38,737 nucleotides of DNA from Deltaproteobacteria bacterium (lineage in GTDB: Bacteria > Desulfobacterota > JAJRXV01). Both the position numbers and the translations under genes were made by a program. Of this stretch, positions 21,918 to 35,963 are shown piece by piece (the first letter of the stretch is position 1; each line of letters begins with the position of its first letter). The notes below the pieces were generated by a model. That model was not told where the DNA came from, ran no database searches, and saw nothing but the letters and a program-made list of their open reading frames with translations. The stretch spans positions 1 to 38,737 of the forward strand of contig JAJRXV010000153.1 of assembly GCA_024276115.1 (NCBI GenBank). Reading direction: 5' to 3'.

Positions 21918-22367
21918 TTATTCCTCTCCTTTAGTAATCATTTTAAATAGTTCTTCTTCTTTCTTTTTCATCGCTTTGGCGTCAGAGTCCTCTTTCTCAT
22001 GGTCGTACCCGCAAAGGTGTAAAATGCCATGGATGAGCAGGTAGATAGTCTCCTCCTCAATAGTCACATTTTTTTTTTCGGCGTATTCCTTAGCGTTGTC
22101 AAGGGATACGACAACATCACCAAGAAGGTAGTCATTTATACCTGAGTCCTCCCCCTCTCGCATTGGAAAAGATATTACATCAGTAGGGTAATCTCTGTTT
22201 AAGTATTTCGCGTTCAAGCCCCTAATCTCTTCATCTCCGACAAAGAGTACGCTGACTTCAGTGCTACTTGGACATTCCAAGGCGTTTAAGATTTTCTTTA
22301 TCTTCGTTTTCATCACCGCCTTGTTTATCTGTATCTTTTGATGATTGCTTCTTAACTGTATCTCCAT
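21918..22367 (-). CDS. ybeY: Endoribonuclease YbeY (rRNA maturation)
   Basis: The 149-residue product has the YbeY metalloprotein motif HGILHLCGYDH (three histidines binding Zn2+) and LNRDYPTDVISFPM upstream. The N-terminal piece MEIQLRSNHQKIQINKAVMK looks like the normal YbeY first strand and helix, so I keep the start at 22367 although this overlaps pgpH by 104 bases. YbeY acts in 16S 3'-end maturation and ribosome quality control. It lies in the usual pgpH-ybeY-corC context. The overlapped part of pgpH is its hydrophilic tail, so ybeY is the more constrained frame there. Confidence 0.95.
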   Translation of the reverse strand: MEIQLRSNHQKIQINKAVMKTKIKKILNALECPSSTEVSVLFVGDEEIRGLNAKYLNRDYPTDVISFPMREGEDSGINDYLLGDVVVSLDNAKEYAEKKNVTIEEETIYLLIHGILHLCGYDHEKEDSDAKAMKKKEEELFKMITKGEE

Positions 22368-24960
22368 TTTGCTTTTGCTTCCTCTCGCTTTGTTTGTAAG
22401 CCAGCTCTGGGTAATCGACTCTTTGATGATATATCGCGTTCAAGATATGGTTAAACGCCTTTGCTATCTTATTAAGATCCTTCAACGTCAACTCACACTC
22501 ATCAAGCTGCCCCTCTGAAAACATCTTATTTATCATCTTCTGCACGACACCTTGTATCCGCGCGGAAGTAAATTCAGGTATTGTTTTTGCCGCCGCCTCA
22601 ACGACGTCAGCCAAAAGCACCAGCCCAGCCTCCTTCGTCTGCGGTTTCGGACCGGGGTACTTGAAGTCCTTCTCGTCTACTGTTTGCAGATTTTCATCCT
22701 CTTGATCCTTAGCTTTTTTGTAGAAGTACTTTATCAGCCCTGTACCGTGATGCTGTTGGATAATATCTATTATCTTCTTGCCAAGCTTGTGTTCTGTCGC
22801 GAGCTCCACACCCTCCCGAATATGAGATATGATAATCAAACTACTCATATTGGGGCTGAGCTTATCGTGCTTGTTGTTTATCTCCCGCTGGTTCTCAATG
22901 AAATAAAGTGGTTTCTTAATTTTACCTATATCATGGTAGTATGAACTTACCCGGGCGAGGAGCGGGTTGGCGTTTATCGCTTTCGCGGCCTCCTCTACCA
23001 TAGAGCCGACAATGATCGAATGCTGATATGTGCCCGGAGCGTGAATCGGAAGCTTTTTCAAAAGCGGGTGGTCAAGATTTGCCAGCTCAAGGAGCTTGAT
23101 ATCGGTAGTGTAGCCGAATACAGCCTCTATTATCGGAATTACCCCCGAAACAAGTATGCTGAGAATTATACCATTAGCGAACCCTGATACAAGTTGCGTC
23201 ACATTGCTTTCAGAGAAAACGTCGAGCTTCAGGTTGAACGTGTTGAAGGATAGTATTAGCAGAACGTTGATAAATCCTACCATGAATCCGGCTTTGATCA
23301 TTGTTGTTCGTTGTTTGCAGTGAGTCACCCCTAGAGCGGCGACCAAACTTCCTACAAAAGAATAAACAAAGATAATCATAGAGTTATCCATCAACAACGC
23401 ATACAGAAGGCTCGAAAATAGCGAGTAGATGAGGGCGGTTTCTGAGTTGAGTACTATTCTGATTGTCATTGCGCCCAACGCGAATGGAATAGCATAATAG
23501 TAATCGGCGACATTTGTGCCGGGTAGTCTGATACTCATCGCTTCGGAGATAAATATGAACCCTTTTGCGATGAGTAGCCCAAAAATCGAGATCACGCACA
23601 TCAGCAAAACGTCTTTAAAGTCTATTGTAAATTTTCTGATATTTTTCGAGGCGAACCTATAACCAACAAGTGTTAAAGTCAGTAGCATCATGAAAACCCC
23701 GACGAAGATCTTTACATATCTGTATTCGAGCTTTGTTGTGCTAAGTTTGCGTAAAAACAAGATGTCCTGTTCTTCTACCGGATCACCTTCTCTGACGATG
23801 ACTTCACCTTTTTTAACCTCAAAAAATACCGGTGATATAGCGTCTTCGGCCTTTTTCTTCCGCTTTTCCGTTTCATTTTTGTTTAGTGAAAGGTTTGGTG
23901 TTATCAGCTCTTGTGACTTGTTAAGTATTAGTTTCACAAGCTTCTTTGACTTAATCTCACTAAGCATATCTTTAGAAATAATCGCTATTATGTTTTTTAC
24001 GTCCTTGTAATCTTTGACGATACCTATATCTTTTATCCTGTCTTCTTTTTGAGTCTCGATTTTGCGAATGATTATACCTTTAGATTGATCGTCAGGCAAA
24101 AGCCCTTTATCCCGGACTATGAAATTTTCCATAGATTTTGAGATTATTGACTTAATATTATCACGTATTTGAAGGGTAAATTTGCTGTCTATAAGCACTT
24201 TGTATTCATTATCAGTAAGAGTTATCTTCAGTGCTTCCTCGAAATTCTTTTTCATTGTGATGATCTGTTCTTCAGGCTTCTGGATTGCTTTTATGTCTGC
24301 CTCAAACATCTTTTTCTTATCTTTAGGGATGCTTACTTCTCTTTCACCTACTTTGAGTGTTATCAGCTCAACCGGCTCTTCCACAATAACATCTTTCGCC
24401 TTTATCAGCTCCTTATCTGGCTTGGGTAGCGTTTTATCCAGAGTCACTGGGGTGTTTTTGTCGCCTTCAGGCGTAACAACCGGCTTAGGCTGTGGCTCTT
24501 CAATCGGTGGTGTAGCTACATTGACCGCATAGCTATTTATTACCTCGTCGACTTTATTGTTGTAATTCGTGTAAAGCCGTTGGATTATCCCGAACGCGTT
24601 ATCAACATTTTTCTGAATGTCAAGAGGTATTTTTGAGTCGTAATCATAGACTGATAGTGCGTGTTCGCGCGCGTTTTTCTTCATTACCCTGACTTGTTTT
24701 GAATCCTCTACTCTTATAAGAAATGGCGCTTTTATAGTTGAATCAGCAATCGCGCCTTTCTCGTAGCTATACGTTGTGACCTTAGACTCCTGAGAAATCA
24801 GGAATGTCAGAATAAGCGTAGTCACAAGGCATAAAAAAAACTTGTGTAATCCTCTGTTGTTCATAATGTTTTCCCTCTTTACATAATTATCTAATACGAA
24901 TACGTTCTTCTTAAAAAGGTAATAGAACAATGATTTTTTTTCTTGCCCGTCAATATCCAT
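22264..24960 (-). CDS. pgpH: 7TMR-HD family phosphodiesterase (PgpH-like)
   Basis: The 898-residue protein has a short cytoplasmic N-terminus, one membrane helix (about 41-56), a large extracytoplasmic 7TMR-HDED region (about 60-410) with a proline-rich insert around 150-200 (PPIEEPQPKPVV), seven membrane helices (about 415-615) and a cytoplasmic HD domain (about 640-850): H647, H676-D677 (YYHDIGK), H713, IIQQHHGTGL and D785. In Gram-positives PgpH hydrolyses c-di-AMP; here the nucleotide is not proven. ATG 24960 has AAGG at about nine bases; an internal ATG at residue 33 is also preceded by GAGGG, so the start is ambiguous. The last 34 residues (NGDTVKKQSS.., low complexity) are read from DNA that also encodes the YbeY start. 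Confidence 0.9.
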   Translation of the reverse strand: MDIDGQEKKSLFYYLFKKNVFVLDNYVKRENIMNNRGLHKFFLCLVTTLILTFLISQESKVTTYSYEKGAIADSTIKAPFLIRVEDSKQVRVMKKNAREHALSVYDYDSKIPLDIQKNVDNAFGIIQRLYTNYNNKVDEVINSYAVNVATPPIEEPQPKPVVTPEGDKNTPVTLDKTLPKPDKELIKAKDVIVEEPVELITLKVGEREVSIPKDKKKMFEADIKAIQKPEEQIITMKKNFEEALKITLTDNEYKVLIDSKFTLQIRDNIKSIISKSMENFIVRDKGLLPDDQSKGIIIRKIETQKEDRIKDIGIVKDYKDVKNIIAIISKDMLSEIKSKKLVKLILNKSQELITPNLSLNKNETEKRKKKAEDAISPVFFEVKKGEVIVREGDPVEEQDILFLRKLSTTKLEYRYVKIFVGVFMMLLTLTLVGYRFASKNIRKFTIDFKDVLLMCVISIFGLLIAKGFIFISEAMSIRLPGTNVADYYYAIPFALGAMTIRIVLNSETALIYSLFSSLLYALLMDNSMIIFVYSFVGSLVAALGVTHCKQRTTMIKAGFMVGFINVLLILSFNTFNLKLDVFSESNVTQLVSGFANGIILSILVSGVIPIIEAVFGYTTDIKLLELANLDHPLLKKLPIHAPGTYQHSIIVGSMVEEAAKAINANPLLARVSSYYHDIGKIKKPLYFIENQREINNKHDKLSPNMSSLIIISHIREGVELATEHKLGKKIIDIIQQHHGTGLIKYFYKKAKDQEDENLQTVDEKDFKYPGPKPQTKEAGLVLLADVVEAAAKTIPEFTSARIQGVVQKMINKMFSEGQLDECELTLKDLNKIAKAFNHILNAIYHQRVDYPELAYKQSERKQKQNGDTVKKQSSKDTDKQGGDENEDKENLKRLGMSK

Positions 24961-25073: not shown

Positions 25074-26492
25074 TCAGTTAAAAGAGATTTCCATTCGCTT
25101 TAGCTTCTCAACTAAAGTGGTACGGTTAATGTTTAAAAATTTCGCGGCTTTACTCTTTGTTCCTTTATGTAGCGCCATAGCGTTTTTGATCAGTTCTTTT
25201 TCAAATTTTGCCAGCTCACTGTTAAGGTCTATACCGGTTGTGGTGTGCTTATCGCTTTTGACCCTGCTTGCCTTGGGGATCAAAGCCTTGCTTCTAACAT
25301 TTTGTGGAAAATCTTTCTCAGTGATTTTATTATCATCGCATAATATTATCGCGCGCTCGATCATGTTTTCCAGCTCTCGGACATTACCGGGGAAGTCATA
25401 AGCTTCAAGTAACTTGATCGCGGAATCATCAATAATAACCTTCTTGTTCTTGATTTTCTTTGAGTATTTCTTTAAGAAATATTTTGCCAGTAAAGGTACA
25501 TCGCCCTTACGCTTTTCAAGGGTAGGGAGATTTAATTGTACTATGTCCAGTCTATAATATAGGTCTTCTCTAAATGTCCCGTTTTTTATCGCCTCAGTCA
25601 GGTTGGCGTTTGTCGCTGAAACCACGCGCACATCGATTTTTTTTGACTTGGTGTCGCCGACTTTTACAATCTCTTTCTCCTGGAGTACGCGAAGTAATTT
25701 CACTTGTAGAGCAGGACTCATATTACCTATTTCATCCAAAAATATTGTTCCGTTATCCGCGTATTCAAACTTCCCCACCTTGGTTGCGTGGGCGCCGGTA
25801 AAAGCTCCCTTGACATGCCCAAAAAGCTCACTTTCGAGCAGGTTGTGCGGGATAGAGCCGCAGTTTATAGCCACGAACTTATTGTCACGTCGCGAGCTGT
25901 TGTAGTGTACCGCTTTCGCGACAAGTTCTTTGCCGGTACCAGAATTACCGAGAATCAAAATAGAGCAGTCCTGGTCAGCGACCTTCTCCATCACATTGAA
26001 AACCTCCTGCATTGCCAGGCTCTTACCGATGATGTTGCTGAAATCATATTTTCCATACAGTAGTTTTTTTAAGTATGTGTTCTCATTGATTAAACGCTGT
26101 TGGTCGAGCGCTTTGTCGATCACTTTTTTCAGCTCATCAAATTTAAGCGGCTTCAAAATGTAATCATAAGCGCCTTCTTTTATGGCCGTAACAGCTGTTT
26201 TTATTGTCGCGTGCCCGGTGATAAGAAGAGTGCAGATATGCGGTGCTGTCTCCTTGATATTTTTTAACAGATCTATGCCGTTCATGTTAGGCAGTTTAAG
26301 GTCAGTGATAACTATGTCGATATTCTCTTTTTTGAGTATCTTTAGCGCTTCTTCCCCGGATCCTGCGGAAAAAGGCAGGAAATTTTCACGTTCCAGCAAC
26401 TTAGTGAGAGCTAATCGCGTGTGAACCTCGTCATCTACGATTAAAATAGGTATCTTGCTGCTACCTTCATTGTTATCACTCTTACTCATCAT
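25074..26492 (-). CDS. NtrC-family sigma54-dependent response regulator
   Basis: The start is taken at 26492 (MMSKSDNNE, or the next ATG), with AAAGGTGG upstream; the longer start in the track lies inside the preceding gene. Domains: receiver (about residues 15-130) with DDEVH, phospho-acceptor in DIVITDLKLPN and Lys in YILKPLKF; AAA+ domain (about 155-390) with Walker A GNSGTGKE, the sigma54-contacting loop GAFTGA intact, Walker B TIFLDEIG; C-terminal Fis-type HTH (AAKFLNINRTTLVEKLKRM). It is a classical enhancer-binding protein that activates sigma54 RNA polymerase. No histidine kinase is adjacent. It overlaps the stop of the upstream 874-codon gene, and the coupling suggests that gene's product feeds into it. 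Confidence 0.95.
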   Translation of the reverse strand: MMSKSDNNEGSSKIPILIVDDEVHTRLALTKLLERENFLPFSAGSGEEALKILKKENIDIVITDLKLPNMNGIDLLKNIKETAPHICTLLITGHATIKTAVTAIKEGAYDYILKPLKFDELKKVIDKALDQQRLINENTYLKKLLYGKYDFSNIIGKSLAMQEVFNVMEKVADQDCSILILGNSGTGKELVAKAVHYNSSRRDNKFVAINCGSIPHNLLESELFGHVKGAFTGAHATKVGKFEYADNGTIFLDEIGNMSPALQVKLLRVLQEKEIVKVGDTKSKKIDVRVVSATNANLTEAIKNGTFREDLYYRLDIVQLNLPTLEKRKGDVPLLAKYFLKKYSKKIKNKKVIIDDSAIKLLEAYDFPGNVRELENMIERAIILCDDNKITEKDFPQNVRSKALIPKASRVKSDKHTTTGIDLNSELAKFEKELIKNAMALHKGTKSKAAKFLNINRTTLVEKLKRMEISFN

Positions 26493-29106
26493 CGAGCCAC
26501 CTTTTGTTTTTGAAAAAAACATTAATATCTGAAGCGTATCCTGTTTTTTTCGCTTCTTGTATCCAGTCGTTCAAGTGATGCTTCATCAGCAGGTTATAAA
26601 ATAGCGAGTCTTTTCTTATTATCTCAAAGACCATTGTGTTGTTTTCTTTAGCCTCAAAACCTTTGAACTTTACCTGACCGGCATATCTAAAAAGATCGAC
26701 TTTTAGTTTGTCGTTGTACTTTTCTGTAAAGACGATAAATTTCAGAAGTTTGACAGGGAAGACAAATTCATCTAATATCGCTTTATTGAAGTCCGACACC
26801 CTTACATCCTGCTTGAAAAAGTTCTTCTTGTCCTTTACCTCTTTGATATACGCTATCACCGCTTCTATACTCATTGCTTCACCGAGGTTATAGATGTCAT
26901 GACCGTAATCGACGAACGTTAAATCAGGCGAATATCCGCCATCTTCAGTTTCCATAGCTGAACATATCCCATTATAACACAACTTGGATATCGATTGCGA
27001 CAGTTTTTTTGCAAGCTCTTTATCTTTGTTCTTAATCGCAAGCTCCAAAGCGCTTGCCATATCTATGTCAAAGTTAAAAGCGTAAGTATTATCAATGTAT
27101 ACAGCAAAAGGATAAAGTAAGTTCTTACGTTGTCTCCGCTCCTCTTCTTCACGGATTATGCTGAGTAGCTTTTTCCGTAGTGACTTATTTCGTGCTGTAC
27201 CACGCGCCGCTTCGTTTATTTTTTCGGCGATCGCGACTTTTGAGCTACCCCACACCTCATCCTCGATATCGATGATCTCGGCGGGCGCGCCATAAGAGAT
27301 AAAGAGCCCCGAATCAAGCCCCCCATCGTCATGCTCAACTTCATGAGGGTCAAAGTCACTGCTTTCAAACTCGATACGTCGCAGTTTTTTCTCATACTCC
27401 TTCGCGATATTTTGAATATCTTCGGCGAGGTTTACAAGCGAGTGTACCGTACCAGAAAATGCTACAGCGTCACCTAGAAGATTGTTCAGCGTGACGTTTT
27501 TTGAGCCATCCAATGAGCCTACACCGACGAAGTATTTTTTTCCGGCGGATAAGATAGGTAAGTAAAATTCCTTCATCATGAAATCCGCCATGACTATCTC
27601 TTTTGCTCGATATGTCTTTTTTGTGTAGTCTTTTAAATCGATAAAGAGTTGCCCCTCTCTCTTGATAGAGAGCTCTTTCAGAGTGTCCATGTCATCGTTG
27701 GCGAAGCGATACAGCCGCCCTTTATGGTATTCCCGGTCGAGCTCTTCATCTTTTGTTGTACCGCGTTTGTCATTCAACTGTTCTATAACAGTACCCGCGA
27801 CTTCTTTTATTCTGTTATCCTCATACGCGCAGATGAAGTTTCTTATTAAGTTACTTAGCTCGTCCTTCGTTTTTATTAGGAATTTTGACTTGAGGCTGCC
27901 TGCCTTAAAAAGGTCAAAGCGTGTTTCAATCTCATGGATGTAATCTTGGATATTTTCATCTATTTTGCTCTTTTCATGTAGAATCTTCATGCAGTTTTCG
28001 CTGTTCACCATCTCTGCGGAGTTGTTGAGAGCAAGGTCAAGTAGCTTGCTGTCCCGAATCAACGCAAGCAGATAGTTGCTCGCTTGATCTTTCTGGTTAT
28101 CGTTTTCAAACAGATACTCTAATACGGCGTATCTAAACCGTATCAGCTTAGCGTTGTACAGCGCTTTATTCTGGATATCTTTCTTGAGCTTATGCTGGAG
28201 AGATTTCACTCTGTCAGCGAGAGGCGCGTCACTTTTGAGCTCTTCATATAATGGCGCAATAGATTCAAAAAGAGAGAGTGGAATATGGTATATATTGTAA
28301 TCGTTTTTTAGTGTCCCCTTGTCAGTCATCGAGAATATCATCGGTGATACAGTCGCGAGCAACAAGTATTCAAGCTTCACCAGGTTATACGCCACCTGTT
28401 TTTTTTCAAATTGTTTCAGGCTACTTTTTATCGCCGTAGTGAGTAGTACGTGCAAAATGTTGGAAAATAGTCTGTCAAGCCGCTCTAATGTTACTCCACG
28501 CACACGGATGTTTTTTATTGTCGCTGTTTTGAAGTTCCGTAGTAGTTTTATAAGCGCCAGATGCGCTATGTAAGCAGTAGGTTCAGCCGTGGACGTTCTT
28601 ATCTCTTCAGCGATCATTTTGTTATAGAACATGAGCAATCCATGGATCAGCTCAGAGCCATTTGATTTTTTTGAGAACCAGTACGCGAGTAGTGACGCGT
28701 CAGCCGTGCTGTCATTTTCGAGTATCTGGGTTATAACATCTATCGTCGCCGTGTTGGCGTCGAGGTTGGTGGTCTTTAGTGTTTTTTGAGGTAGCCCAAA
28801 TTCACGTCGTGTTTTTGATGATATGTTCAGGCTCGAGTGATCGTCATCGGTCGTTTTTTTTACAATATGATCCTCGTAGCGGAATTTGATAAGCTCCGCT
28901 AACTCCTTCAATGATGATAATATTATATCCTCAACGTAACTCGAGAAGACAAAGGGAATCATTATTTCCCGGTTGATCCCACCCAATGAGTGACGGATCT
29001 TCTTACGGGGAATCTTAAAAAAGGATTCGTAAGTTTTTTTATGCAGAGCCAAGTAGCTCTGCAAATCTGAAAAAAACTGAAATCTATCACCTGAAAAAGG
29101 TTTCAA
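26482..29106 (-). CDS. Large helical protein with a cryptic class III nucleotidyl cyclase-like domain
   Basis: I know no named family. The 874-residue product has no signal peptide or membrane helix; residues 1-480 are helical with no motif I know. At 485-640 I read a degenerate class III cyclase layout: FIDLKDYT (F488-T495, position of the first metal Asp, D490), LLGDAVAF (D546, position of the second metal Asp), SGLFISYGAPAEI (599-611, like the RVGIHTGE strand) and KVAIAEKINEAAR (like VNLAARL, but N and R are Ala and Lys). So metal Asp positions may persist while transition-state residues are lost. The C-terminus (680-874) is again helical. The gene overlaps the NtrC-type gene start (TAA within ATGATGAGTAA). 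Function unknown; sensor or receptor role is inference. Confidence 0.75.
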   Translation of the reverse strand: MKPFSGDRFQFFSDLQSYLALHKKTYESFFKIPRKKIRHSLGGINREIMIPFVFSSYVEDIILSSLKELAELIKFRYEDHIVKKTTDDDHSSLNISSKTRREFGLPQKTLKTTNLDANTATIDVITQILENDSTADASLLAYWFSKKSNGSELIHGLLMFYNKMIAEEIRTSTAEPTAYIAHLALIKLLRNFKTATIKNIRVRGVTLERLDRLFSNILHVLLTTAIKSSLKQFEKKQVAYNLVKLEYLLLATVSPMIFSMTDKGTLKNDYNIYHIPLSLFESIAPLYEELKSDAPLADRVKSLQHKLKKDIQNKALYNAKLIRFRYAVLEYLFENDNQKDQASNYLLALIRDSKLLDLALNNSAEMVNSENCMKILHEKSKIDENIQDYIHEIETRFDLFKAGSLKSKFLIKTKDELSNLIRNFICAYEDNRIKEVAGTVIEQLNDKRGTTKDEELDREYHKGRLYRFANDDMDTLKELSIKREGQLFIDLKDYTKKTYRAKEIVMADFMMKEFYLPILSAGKKYFVGVGSLDGSKNVTLNNLLGDAVAFSGTVHSLVNLAEDIQNIAKEYEKKLRRIEFESSDFDPHEVEHDDGGLDSGLFISYGAPAEIIDIEDEVWGSSKVAIAEKINEAARGTARNKSLRKKLLSIIREEEERRQRKNLLYPFAVYIDNTYAFNFDIDMASALELAIKNKDKELAKKLSQSISKLCYNGICSAMETEDGGYSPDLTFVDYGHDIYNLGEAMSIEAVIAYIKEVKDKKNFFKQDVRVSDFNKAILDEFVFPVKLLKFIVFTEKYNDKLKVDLFRYAGQVKFKGFEAKENNTMVFEIIRKDSLFYNLLMKHHLNDWIQEAKKTGYASDINVFFKNKRWLDDE

Positions 29107-30206: not shown

Positions 30207-30524
30207 TTATTTATCGTTGTGAGGTTCGGCAAGTCTGGCAAATATTACTCTGGCATTTTGCCAGTTGCTACTCTCTTCTTTTTTGACCATGATATAAAAC
30301 TCACACTTTTGGCACATAGGGAGCTTGAGTGCGAAGGTCCCCTGGACTTCTCCGTTACAGAATGTTCTCGCAATCGCCCAGCATGACCTGCCTCCGTATT
30401 TGCCGCCATTAATACCGGTAAGTTTTTCTTCTGACGCCGCGGGACATACGCCCATTGCGTCAGCGTCGTCGCTTTCTGATTCGCGTCCGCATTTCAAGAC
30501 TTCCCAGCAATTCATTTTATTCAT
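30207..30524 (-). CDS. Two-CW domain protein
   Basis: The 105-residue protein shows the two-CW pattern: MNCWEVLKCGRE, GVCPAA, NGGKYGGRSCWAIARTFC, then KLPMCQKCEFYIMVKKEE. Seven cysteines (C6, C12, C27, C48, C56, C71, C74) with two CW dipeptides suggest a metal-binding cysteine fold, seen alone or fused to sensors and PAS proteins in delta-like anaerobes. No signal peptide, so probably cytoplasmic. AAGGAG precedes the ATG by nine bases. It is monocistronic, 160 bases from mtnP, and the function is unknown; redox or metal sensing is inference. Confidence 0.85.
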   Translation of the reverse strand: MNKMNCWEVLKCGRESESDDADAMGVCPAASEEKLTGINGGKYGGRSCWAIARTFCNGEVQGTFALKLPMCQKCEFYIMVKKEESSNWQNARVIFARLAEPHNDK

Positions 30525-31999: not shown

Positions 32000-33886
32000 T
32001 TGACAAAGGATTTTAGTAAGCTAAATAAAAACAGCTCTTCACGAGTATCAGATAAGATAGTTAACATTATAAAGATGTTAGGTTTTTTTGAGTCCGGCAT
32101 GAGCTATACGGTTAAAGAACTATCAGAAAAACTGAACGTTTCCAAGAAGACGATATACAGGTACTTGCAGACCTTACAGTCAGCATACCTGCCTATTGAT
32201 AGGGATCCGGTTTCTCTAAGGTACTCAGTCGGCGGTGGTTTCACTTTCAAGAAGGTCGGTGCGCTGATTGAAAAAAAAGAATATGATGATCTCCACGTTA
32301 TGGCTGATTCTGTGAACAGCGCGGTTTTTATTGTTGATGAAAACGGTAGAATAATCTACTGGAATAGCGCGGCGGAGAAGTTATATGGGTATAAAAAAGA
32401 AGAGCTCACCGGGAAAGCATTTTACAAATACCTTTCTCCAAAACGCTACCATAAGCAGCATCAGAAGTCACTAGCGGAATTTAAGAAGGCCGGGAAGTTA
32501 ACTATGGCTAGTATGCCAAACAAGTTTATCTCTCAGGATAAAAGCGGTAGAGAATTTCCGGTGGAAGTGTCCCTTTCTACTATGACATTGGGCGGAAATA
32601 ATAGTATGATTTTGAATGTCAGGGATATCACTAGCCAGAAGCGTACAGAGGAGGCGTTAAAAAATATCGCTTTGGGGTTTGTCGGATCAAAGGGGGATGA
32701 TCTACTGCGTTCCCTTGTGAAAAAACTCGCGAATTTTGTCCCTGCTGACAATGCGCATATATGTGAGTTGATGCCCGGGGAAGAGAAGACCTTCAGGGTA
32801 GTCGCGACAACTCCAGGAGCCCTGGGTAAAGGTAATTATATTTGTCGTAAACCATGTTGTATTTGTAATTTAGTTCAAAAAGAGGGTTTTAAGTATTTTT
32901 CTGGTAATGTTCAAGAAAAAGCAGCTAATCCTAATTACTTTATCGAAAATGGTTTTATAAGTTACAGTGGTGTTCCACTGCTTGATTCTGATAGTAAGAA
33001 GATCGGTGTTATATCGATAATGAGTCGCCAGGAGTTCAGCAACCAGCTTTCTGTTGAGACAATGTTGAAAATATTCGCTGTAAGAGCCTCTATGGAGCTA
33101 GAGAGGAGGCGTGCTGAGGATAACATAGAAATGATCAAGAACGAGATTGAGCTACTGACCTCTTCAACTCAAGACGCGATATATATGCTCGATAATAACG
33201 GAGATATTATTTATTGGAATAAGGCCGCTGAAAGGATTTACGGCTTCTCCAGCTCTGCGATCATAGGTAAAAGAGCATATAAATATTTATCTCCTGAGAG
33301 GTTTCATGAAAAGTTTTCTAAGATGAGAGAAGTGATGAAACGCACTGGTACTCATGATTATGTTGATACTATTGGGGAGCATATAGCTGTAAGAAAAAAT
33401 GGTGAGGAATTTATTACAGAGGCTTCGATTTCACGAGTTAAAGTCAAGGGGGCGTTGAACCTTTTGATTGTCGCCAGAGACAAATCGAATGAGAATAAAA
33501 AGAGCGCGAGACTTATAGAAAGTGATACTCCCGCATCTCTGGTCGCGACTTCAAACGCGACGATTGTTCTTGATAAAAATGGAAATATAGCTTACTGGAA
33601 TATGGCGAATCAAAAGGTTTTTAACTTTAAGAGGGAAGAAGTTCTCGGGAACCATTTTTGTACTACGCTTATCGCGGATAAGTTTCAGAAAAATTGTGAT
33701 CTCTTATTAAATGAGATCAAGGAATCAAAAAATAATAAATTTAAAACGAAGAAAATAAAATTATCAATAAAACGAAAAGATGGTATTACTTTTCCGGTGG
33801 ATGTAACTTTTACGCTAATCAAAAGAGAGGATGAGCCGCTAATGATTGTTGCCAGCTTCCCTATACCTATGTCTGTAAGGCGTTAA
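32000..33886 (+). CDS. HTH-PAS-GAF-PAS-PAS transcriptional sensor protein
   Basis: Start TTG at 32000, AAAGGAG 10 bases upstream. The 628-residue product has an N-terminal DeoR-type HTH (about 15-80; SEKLNVSKKTIYRYLQTL), a PAS domain (about 97-212; IVDENGRIIYWNSAAEKLYGY), a GAF domain (about 215-370), and two more PAS domains (about 385-495 and 510-622; both with DNNGDIIYWNKAAERIYGF-type cores). It lacks any histidine kinase, GGDEF or HD output, so the likely output is the HTH itself: a one-component regulator with several ligand- or redox-sensing domains. The GAF holds an odd cysteine cluster (CRKPCCIC, about 282-289). Its N-terminus is paralogous to that of the next gene. Confidence 0.85.
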   Translation: MTKDFSKLNKNSSSRVSDKIVNIIKMLGFFESGMSYTVKELSEKLNVSKKTIYRYLQTLQSAYLPIDRDPVSLRYSVGGGFTFKKVGALIEKKEYDDLHVMADSVNSAVFIVDENGRIIYWNSAAEKLYGYKKEELTGKAFYKYLSPKRYHKQHQKSLAEFKKAGKLTMASMPNKFISQDKSGREFPVEVSLSTMTLGGNNSMILNVRDITSQKRTEEALKNIALGFVGSKGDDLLRSLVKKLANFVPADNAHICELMPGEEKTFRVVATTPGALGKGNYICRKPCCICNLVQKEGFKYFSGNVQEKAANPNYFIENGFISYSGVPLLDSDSKKIGVISIMSRQEFSNQLSVETMLKIFAVRASMELERRRAEDNIEMIKNEIELLTSSTQDAIYMLDNNGDIIYWNKAAERIYGFSSSAIIGKRAYKYLSPERFHEKFSKMREVMKRTGTHDYVDTIGEHIAVRKNGEEFITEASISRVKVKGALNLLIVARDKSNENKKSARLIESDTPASLVATSNATIVLDKNGNIAYWNMANQKVFNFKREEVLGNHFCTTLIADKFQKNCDLLLNEIKESKNNKFKTKKIKLSIKRKDGITFPVDVTFTLIKREDEPLMIVASFPIPMSVRR

Positions 33887-33887
33887 C

Positions 33888-34925
33888 ATGGTAAAGAAAA
33901 ATCCAAAAGTAAAAAATAATAAAAAATTCGATAAATTAACCAGAAGTTCTACTTTTGGTGTTTCAGAAAAGATCGTTAATATTCTCAAACTCCTTAACCA
34001 TTTTGATTCTGGAAACAGCTATACAGTAAAGCAACTTGCCACAGAAATTGGGGTTTCTGAAAAAACCATATATCGCTATTTTAAAACGCTCAAGGCGGCT
34101 TATGTCCCGATTTATAGAGATTCGGTGACGCTTAGGTACTCTTTTTACAGCGGTTATACCCTAAAAAAAATCGGTCTCTCAGAGGATGAGGTCTCCGTTC
34201 TGGCGACTTTAAAAAACCTTGTAACAAACCTCGGTATCCCTTTTGCCACATCATTCAATAGTGTACTTGACAAAGTAACATACAAAGCTAGAGGAGATAT
34301 AAAGCTTGAAAAGAGCAACTCTGAGTTGCCGATATGGATAAATATTGACGAGTCGAAAGACTTTTATAAGTTTGAGAAAATATTTTCTATTATCAGTAAG
34401 AGTATTAAGGATACTTGCAGGCTTAACATGACATATTTTACTCTTTCGAGGAGGACTACAACGAAAAGATCGATTGATCCTTATGGACTTATATACTCTA
34501 ACGGTTTTTGGATAATGGTCGCTTATTGCCATTTTCGGGGCGAGGTGCGGCACTTTTCTGTCGATAATATCAGAGAGCTTGAGATAACTGATAAATACTT
34601 CTTTTACCCTGAGGACTTCAACCTTGCCGAACACGTCAAAAGGAGCTGGCGCTACTATAGTGGAAAAACAGCTGAAGTACTCGTAAGGTTTGATGAAGAG
34701 ATCAAGCATACGATCCTGCGCCGTGAAAAGTGGCATCCAACCCAGAAAGTAATCAATAACAGTGATGGAAGCGTTACCCTCTCTTTTACTGTCGCCGGTA
34801 CAGAAGAGATCAAACACTGGATATACAAATTTTTACCGAATTGTGAAGTCCTTGCCCCACCATATCTACGCGAAACTATTAAGAAAGACCTGCTAGCTGC
34901 TCTTAACAAATATAAAAAAAACTAA
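33888..34925 (+). CDS. HTH-WYL transcriptional regulator
   Basis: The 345-residue product starts one base after the previous stop. It has the same DeoR-type HTH as its neighbour (about 22-95; ATEIGVSEKTIYRYFKTLKA), a WYL domain (about 165-235; SIDPYGLIYSNGFWIMVAYC and HFSVDNIRELEIT) and a C-terminal WCX segment (about 260-340). WYL proteins sense ligands (often nucleic acids or nucleotides) and regulate defence, DNA-damage or stress genes. With the preceding PAS protein it forms a pair sharing the DNA-binding domain, and it may control this operon or the downstream ARPP-1 gene; that is inference. Confidence 0.93.
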   Translation: MVKKNPKVKNNKKFDKLTRSSTFGVSEKIVNILKLLNHFDSGNSYTVKQLATEIGVSEKTIYRYFKTLKAAYVPIYRDSVTLRYSFYSGYTLKKIGLSEDEVSVLATLKNLVTNLGIPFATSFNSVLDKVTYKARGDIKLEKSNSELPIWINIDESKDFYKFEKIFSIISKSIKDTCRLNMTYFTLSRRTTTKRSIDPYGLIYSNGFWIMVAYCHFRGEVRHFSVDNIRELEITDKYFFYPEDFNLAEHVKRSWRYYSGKTAEVLVRFDEEIKHTILRREKWHPTQKVINNSDGSVTLSFTVAGTEEIKHWIYKFLPNCEVLAPPYLRETIKKDLLAALNKYKKN

Positions 34926-35030: not shown

Positions 35031-35963
35031 ATGAAACAGCTAGTTGGAAGTTTTCTGAGAAGTTTGAAGTTAGGGGAGAAGATGGAGTATCGAAACCTTA
35101 CAATTTTTCCAATCTCTACAAATCAGGCGGCAGGTCATAACTTTCTGACAATTGATGAAGCGCTTGAAACCGAGCGTATCTGCATCAAAGAGACATCTGA
35201 GATGGGTGACGTACCAAACTTGATGCTACAGAACTTAAGTGATGAAAAAGTATTTATCCTTGACGGTGAGGAGCTTGTAGGGGCTAAACAGAACAGGGTG
35301 ACAAACTCTGTTGTTCTTGTGCCTGAGCGGGATGAACTCATCATACCGGTTAGTTGCGTTGAACGTAACCGCTGGAACTACAAGACGAAGCGGTTTTCCT
35401 CTGGGCATACGAGGGTATATTTCGGTTTGCGTAAGAAGATTTTTCAAACAGAGATGTCGAGCAGGCAAAGGCAGGTAAAATCGCATTCACAACATGAAGT
35501 ATGGAACGATATTGAGAGCAAGATGCAGGCGATGCATATTGACTCTACTACCAGCGCGATGAATGATATATACAAAAAATACATTAAGAAGCTTAATAAG
35601 TTTAATCAAAAGTTCAGATGTGTAGCCGGGCAAGTAGGTATGGTCGTACTCATCAATAACAAGGTAGTCAGCTGTGAAATATTTTCTGACCCTGAGATAA
35701 TGGAGAAACTACACTATAAGATCCTCAACAGTTACTCTATTGATGCTTTAGAATCATACAGTGGCAAGACCAAAAAACTGAAAACTATTAGAAGAAGGGC
35801 TCTAAAATTCCTTAGTGAGATAAAAAAAACTGAGTTTGAAAAAACTAACTCTGTCGGGCTCGGGGAGGATTTACTGTTCAACTCTGATGACGTTTGTGGC
35901 TCGGCGTTAAAGCATGAAGATAAGCTTATATATATGTCAGCGTACTCAAAGGTGAATCAATAG
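35031..35963 (+). CDS. ARPP-1 domain protein
   Basis: The 310-residue protein matches the ARPP-1 (DUF6569) family: EYRNLTIFPISTNQAAG, HNFLTIDEALETERICIKE, LILDGEEL-type block FILDGEELVGAKQNRVTN, LVPERDELIIPVSCVERNRW. The domain is found near ADP-ribosylglycohydrolase, rhodanese and phosphatase genes. Here a PPP phosphatase and WYL regulator are close by, in line with that association. The biochemical role is unknown. AGGGTGG precedes the ATG. It converges with htrA and the two reading frames overlap by seven bases. Confidence 0.82.
   Translation: MKQLVGSFLRSLKLGEKMEYRNLTIFPISTNQAAGHNFLTIDEALETERICIKETSEMGDVPNLMLQNLSDEKVFILDGEELVGAKQNRVTNSVVLVPERDELIIPVSCVERNRWNYKTKRFSSGHTRVYFGLRKKIFQTEMSSRQRQVKSHSQHEVWNDIESKMQAMHIDSTTSAMNDIYKKYIKKLNKFNQKFRCVAGQVGMVVLINNKVVSCEIFSDPEIMEKLHYKILNSYSIDALESYSGKTKKLKTIRRRALKFLSEIKKTEFEKTNSVGLGEDLLFNSDDVCGSALKHEDKLIYMSAYSKVNQ

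Follow-up and report, generated by a model that had tools for sequence, protein, structure and literature searches.

An 874-amino acid protein encoded on the minus strand of the window (the whole stretch analysed here, 38,737 nucleotides of contig JAJRXV010000153.1 from a Deltaproteobacteria bacterium) raises the question of whether it is a nucleotidyl cyclase and, if so, whether its active site is still complete. The first-pass annotation had seen in it four strings reminiscent of class III cyclase motifs, and had proposed that the fold and both metal-binding aspartates are present but that the catalytic Asn/Arg pair has become Ala/Lys, so that the protein would be inactive, altered or a nucleotide-binding sensor. 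All four strings are found in this open reading frame, which starts with a TTG codon at 29106-29104 that has AAGGGG just 5' of it on the minus strand: FIDLKDYT is residues 488-495, LLGDAVAF residues 543-550, GLFISYGAPAEI residues 600-611 and KVAIAEKINEAAR residues 623-635 (27202-27240 of the window). The interval that had been assigned to the domain, 27305-27650, does span residues from about 486 to 600, but the last of these motifs lies outside it. The features discussed below are collected in the following table.

Features of the 874-amino acid protein gene and its downstream neighbours, in window coordinates (domain assignments are predictions)
Feature	Position	Strand	Basis or conservation
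Gene for the 874-amino acid protein: diverged class III cyclase domain preceded by a helical N-terminal domain	26482..29106	-	Open reading frame with ribosome binding site; full-length homologues; AlphaFold2 model
All-helical N-terminal domain, residues 1-442	27781..29106	-	AlphaFold2; no structural match
Linker EYxxGRLYRFSxDxRPxL between N-terminal domain and cyclase, residues 453-476	27679..27750	-	Conserved
Diverged class III nucleotidyl cyclase domain with insertions, residues 478-836	26599..27675	-	Foldseek top 50; HHalign after insertion removal
D490, first metal-binding Asp position (FxDxKxFT)	27637..27639	-	Asp 55/55
N542, site of the base-recognising Lys (adenylyl cyclases) or Glu (guanylyl cyclases)	27481..27483	-	Asn 50/55, Ser 5/55
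D546, second metal-binding Asp position (LLGDA)	27469..27471	-	Asp 55/55
V624, second base-recognition site (Asp/Thr in adenylyl cyclases)	27235..27237	-	Val 55/55; register from profile scan and insertion-free HHalign
N631, transition-state Asn position	27214..27216	-	Asn 55/55; best profile register
R635, transition-state Arg position	27202..27204	-	Arg 54/55; Lys in L113
C-terminal hairpin GxxxFKGFE...VYE, residues 808-830	26617..26685	-	AlphaFold2 strands 800-812 and 824-830
Sigma-54-dependent response regulator, downstream and overlapping the cyclase gene at its end	25074..26522	-	Response_reg, Sigma54_activat, HTH_8
7TM-HD (PgpH-like) protein, downstream of the cyclase gene and the sigma-54 regulator	22264-24960	-	Family

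The protein does not stand alone. Full-length relatives were present in 8 of the 59 genomes of a first sample (its own genome included) and in 28 of the 395 in a sample of the phylum, normally as one copy per genome. A scan of genome contigs with the single sequence returned no relatives, and an alignment-based scan then gave 77 named loci in metagenome-assembled genomes of Deltaproteobacteria and Myxococcota; a search of viral contigs found none. Family members are 850-1080 amino acids long, and several lineages carry an extra insertion of about 150 residues, rich in charged residues, right behind the helix that follows the LLGDA motif. Pfam, PF00211 included, had no usable match for the protein or 34 relatives (35 members, E ≤0.1), and PF00211 run against the window protein gave no match at E ≤10, hence none at its curated cut-off. 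NCBIfam and the PDB sequences likewise held no usable match for the window protein, and no PADLOC family matches it; a DUF7291 match (E 0.009) occurred in a single member and was treated as noise. Judged by sequence, the 874-amino acid protein is a member of an uncatalogued family of Desulfobacterota and Myxococcota. Two copies of the family gene are broken, one (L096, 4232-6951) by a seeming single-base frameshift at the boundary of the N-terminal and cyclase parts and the other (L049) by one in-frame TGA; these could be assembly errors or decay.

Does the likeness to cyclases extend beyond short motifs? An AlphaFold2 model of the protein, made with 55 family members as input, has a pLDDT of 86 and a pTM of 0.74, and when it was compared with the PDB by Foldseek the listed top 50 matches were all class III nucleotidyl cyclases, as were all 20 matches at E ≤0.001. 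Among the matches are CyaC, Cya2, Rv1900c and Ma1120, along with photoactivated and mammalian enzymes and a uridylate cyclase. The best of them, CyaC, has an E-value of 6.3e-5 and a probability of 1.00; its TM score, normalised by target, is a modest 0.58, which we count against the cyclase reading. The family profile was also aligned by HHalign with 23 canonical PF00211 domains from related genomes. Large insertions in the family separate helix 554-581 from strand 598 (by up to about 150 amino acids in some relatives) and also lie between residues 660 and 787, and the profile probability is only 22% when insertions are kept; the insertion-free family core gave 87-90% with a score of 44, against a maximum of 20.4 for 60 column-shuffled profiles and 8.7 for the reversed profile. 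Thus both the structure prediction and the profile comparison that the first-pass annotation had proposed found the class III core, and its third check, a survey of homologues, found both metal-binding aspartates kept throughout. The low probability with insertions in place, like the lack of any Pfam or PDB sequence match, might be expected of a chance likeness, that is, of short motifs in an unrelated fold. The predicted fold and the Foldseek and insertion-free HHalign results argue against this, as do the motif residues themselves: D490, D546, G545, G600, G606, V624, N631, E632, G636 and R639 do not vary across 55 relatives with roughly 20-53% identity. We regard a chance likeness as very improbable; because the motif residues are invariant, the HHalign score exceeds those of the shuffled profiles and the structural matches are cyclases, the motifs are not fortuitous, and the class III cyclase-like domain is real. 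By eye, the C-terminal hairpin resembles the last hairpin of class III cyclases; position 815 is Lys or Arg in 51 of 55 members, and K815 is a possible candidate for a phosphate contact.

The proposed change of the Asn/Arg pair to Ala/Lys fared differently. It corresponds to reading V624-A625...K629 as VNxAxR, a register that HHalign also gives with the insertion kept, but the insertion-free alignment and an ungapped scan speak against it. When the canonical YTVIGDxVNxASRL was slid without gaps along the family profile, it scored 11.6 with its Asn at N631, higher than anywhere else in the protein, and -2.4 with its Asn at A625. Insertion-free HHalign pairs VAIAEKINEAAR with TVLGDPVNIASR, again placing Asn on N631 and Arg on R635, and the pair is thereby located in VAIGEKINEAARG (canonical TVIGDxVNxASRL). 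In the AlphaFold2 model A625 lies within strand 620-626, and N631 and R635 are on helix 628-636; it is on the corresponding helix that class III cyclases carry their Asn/Arg pair. R635 comes four residues after N631, within the helix behind the G(D/E)x(V/I) motif, and the steps of +7 from base-recognition residue to Asn and of +4 from Asn to Arg equal those between D157, A164 and R168 of Ma1120, of which D157 is the base residue (PMC4215837). The Ala/Lys reading is thus very probably a register error, to judge from the alignments and the model, and the catalytic set of two metal-binding aspartates plus Asn/Arg appears complete. Since the pair is retained in this placement, the inference that the protein is inactive or a sensor loses its main support.

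Our favoured reading, which we hold to be reasonably likely, is that the gene encodes a soluble and catalytically competent class III cyclase that belongs to an uncatalogued family and has a helical input domain; the protein would probably be a working, stand-alone cyclase. Besides the fold and the catalytic set, we count in its favour that the cyclase part is better conserved than the N-terminal part and that the gene is full length, single in each genome and mostly alone between neighbours of opposite orientation. Counting against it are the base-recognition residues, which match no characterised class III type, the size of the insertions and the failure of every Pfam model on 35 members; a conserved nucleotide sensor, moreover, would also be expected to show conservation. 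A pseudo-cyclase, close to the earlier view, would bind nucleotide or metal with this fold without cyclising, and would work either as a sensor or by partnering another protein. Such a role would fit the replacement of the base-recognition residues (N542 and V624), the failure of PF00211 to detect the family and the presence in the same cell of three PF00211 matches (one of them weak). Pseudo-enzymes usually lose their catalytic residues, however, and here each of the four catalytic residues is found in at least 54 of 55 diverged relatives; with the Ala/Lys argument traced to a register error as well, we consider this alternative unlikely.

What, then, would such an enzyme cyclise? The bases are recognised by Lys/Asp in adenylyl cyclases and by Glu/variable in guanylyl cyclases (PMC4215837), and by yet other residues in pyrimidine cyclases (PMC11224242). 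In the 874-amino acid protein the two sites are N542, four residues ahead of the second Asp, and V624, seven ahead of the Asn; neither known type of pair (Lys/Asp-Thr or Glu/variable) is found, and N542/V624 match no characterised class III type. They fit neither adenylyl nor guanylyl cyclases, and the substrate base is therefore not assignable from sequence. Other cyclases are reported, or predicted, to vary at these sites (PMC4215837, PMC4886424), so the Asn and Val bar assignment as an adenylyl or guanylyl cyclase, and not membership of class III, to which the protein belongs by its predicted fold and catalytic residues.

Three known systems come closest. With class III cyclases (PF00211; Arthrospira (Spirulina) CyaC, 1wc3; Synechocystis Cya2, 2w01) it shares the predicted fold, the order of the motifs and the two metal-binding aspartates, and with PF00211 cyclases also an Asn/Arg pair one helical turn apart and an FKG-type C-terminal hairpin. 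Unlike PF00211 cyclases, it has N542 in place of Lys and V624 in place of Asp/Thr, lacks a PF00211 match, bears an unmatched N-terminal domain, and has a cyclase domain of about 350 residues, insertions included, rather than about 190. DUF2652 proteins are likewise uncharacterised, predicted diverged class III cyclases with both metal-binding aspartates, but are single-domain proteins of about 250 amino acids with Lys/Glu or Glu/Lys base pairs, usually without the Asn (PMC4886424), whereas the present family has two domains and keeps N631. The DUF2652 Pfam model matched none of the 35 members, the window protein included, on the assumption that it is still in the Pfam copy searched. PycC of Pycsar (8jsz, one of the Foldseek matches) also combines a class III fold and two metal-binding aspartates with non-canonical base-recognition residues (R142 and Q144 in EaPycC) and acts with a dedicated cyclic-pyrimidine effector (PMC11224242). 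In contrast, the present cyclase has N542/V624, no PADLOC match and no conserved partner, and no adjacent cyclic-pyrimidine effector or defence context was found at the loci scanned, whose neighbours gave no convincing defence match.

Several invariant residues have no counterpart in canonical cyclases: E632, R639 and N740 (55/55 each), with K629 nearly so (52/55) and G742 a further family-specific invariant. The first four could instead serve two-metal nucleotidyl transfer or hydrolysis on the class III fold, rather than 3',5'-cyclisation. The retained Asn/Arg pair is a specific signature of cyclisation, though, and the fold search found no known class III member with a different chemistry, so we think it quite improbable that the family catalyses such a reaction.

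Residues 1-442 are predicted to form one all-helical domain (AlphaFold2 of residues 1-482: pLDDT 90.6, pTM 0.91), and searches with it in the PDB (best E 0.23) and the viral structure library BFVD (best E 0.49) gave noise. The N-terminal part is less conserved than the cyclase part (about 13-25% versus 29-44% pairwise identity to the window protein, with the closest relative left out), and within the N-terminal half no columns other than G463 and Y466, both in the linker, are invariant. When the two halves were searched separately in 297 genomes, the same genomes were matched and neither half was found alone. The sole cyclase-profile match outside the family (E 2e-4, in G099) is radical-SAM-type by eye and was set down to chance. 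Two apparent natural splits between the halves were rejected as evidence of modularity: that in L096 looks like the single-base frameshift mentioned above, and that in L100 coincides with a stretch of N.

If the protein is a cyclase, the active site would be shared by two subunits in a head-to-tail dimer, with D490 and D546 from one binding metal ions and N631/R635 from the other stabilising the ring-closing transition state, so that NTP would be converted to 3',5'-cyclic NMP. The roughly 440-residue N-terminal domain may sense a signal and control the geometry of the dimer through the EYxxGRLYRFSxD linker, which we propose as the signal-transmitting element. A broader picture, which we offer only tentatively, is of a new family of cyclases that is widespread among Desulfobacterota and Myxococcota relatives. 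Its Asn/Val pocket would produce some cyclic nucleotide that is neither cAMP nor cGMP, or several different ones, controlled by a helical sensor fold not seen before, and this in bacteria that have ordinary cyclases as well. Class III cyclases are a central class of second-messenger enzymes, and the standard domain models miss this family in all members tested; its confidently predicted input domain lacks a counterpart among solved structures, and its base residues fall outside the adenylyl and guanylyl rules. If the enzyme is active, cyclic-nucleotide signalling in these phyla would gain a branch, and one could test for which nucleotide the altered pocket is selective.

The PF00211 matches, together with six cyclic-nucleotide-binding domain matches in the window genome, indicate that the cell has cyclic-nucleotide signalling. 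The cyclase gene is flanked in the window by the gene for S-methyl-5'-thioadenosine phosphorylase and by that for the sigma-54 response regulator, which is followed by the PgpH-like 7TM-HD protein, by family a probable cyclic-di-nucleotide phosphodiesterase. The coupling to a sigma-54 activator noted earlier is thus true of this genome; the gene order is seemingly kept in the closest relative (G001; L015, L016) and in no other locus examined. Because the adjacency occurs only here and in one close relative, the sigma-54 regulator is not a general partner of the family. In most genomes the family gene stands alone between oppositely oriented genes, and a search across loci for a conserved operon partner found none. 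Elsewhere in the window, a gene upstream of that for the phosphorylase (30207-30524, minus strand) encodes a 105-amino acid two-CW domain protein (NF045718, E 4e-29). On the plus strand, 32000-34925 encodes a three-PAS protein with an N-terminal HTH followed directly by a WYL/WCX transcription factor whose HTH is similar, and 35031-35963 a 310-amino acid protein with a full ARPP-1 domain (PF20208, E 1.8e-89), a name that refers to association with ARG and rhodanese-phosphatase-superfamily proteins.
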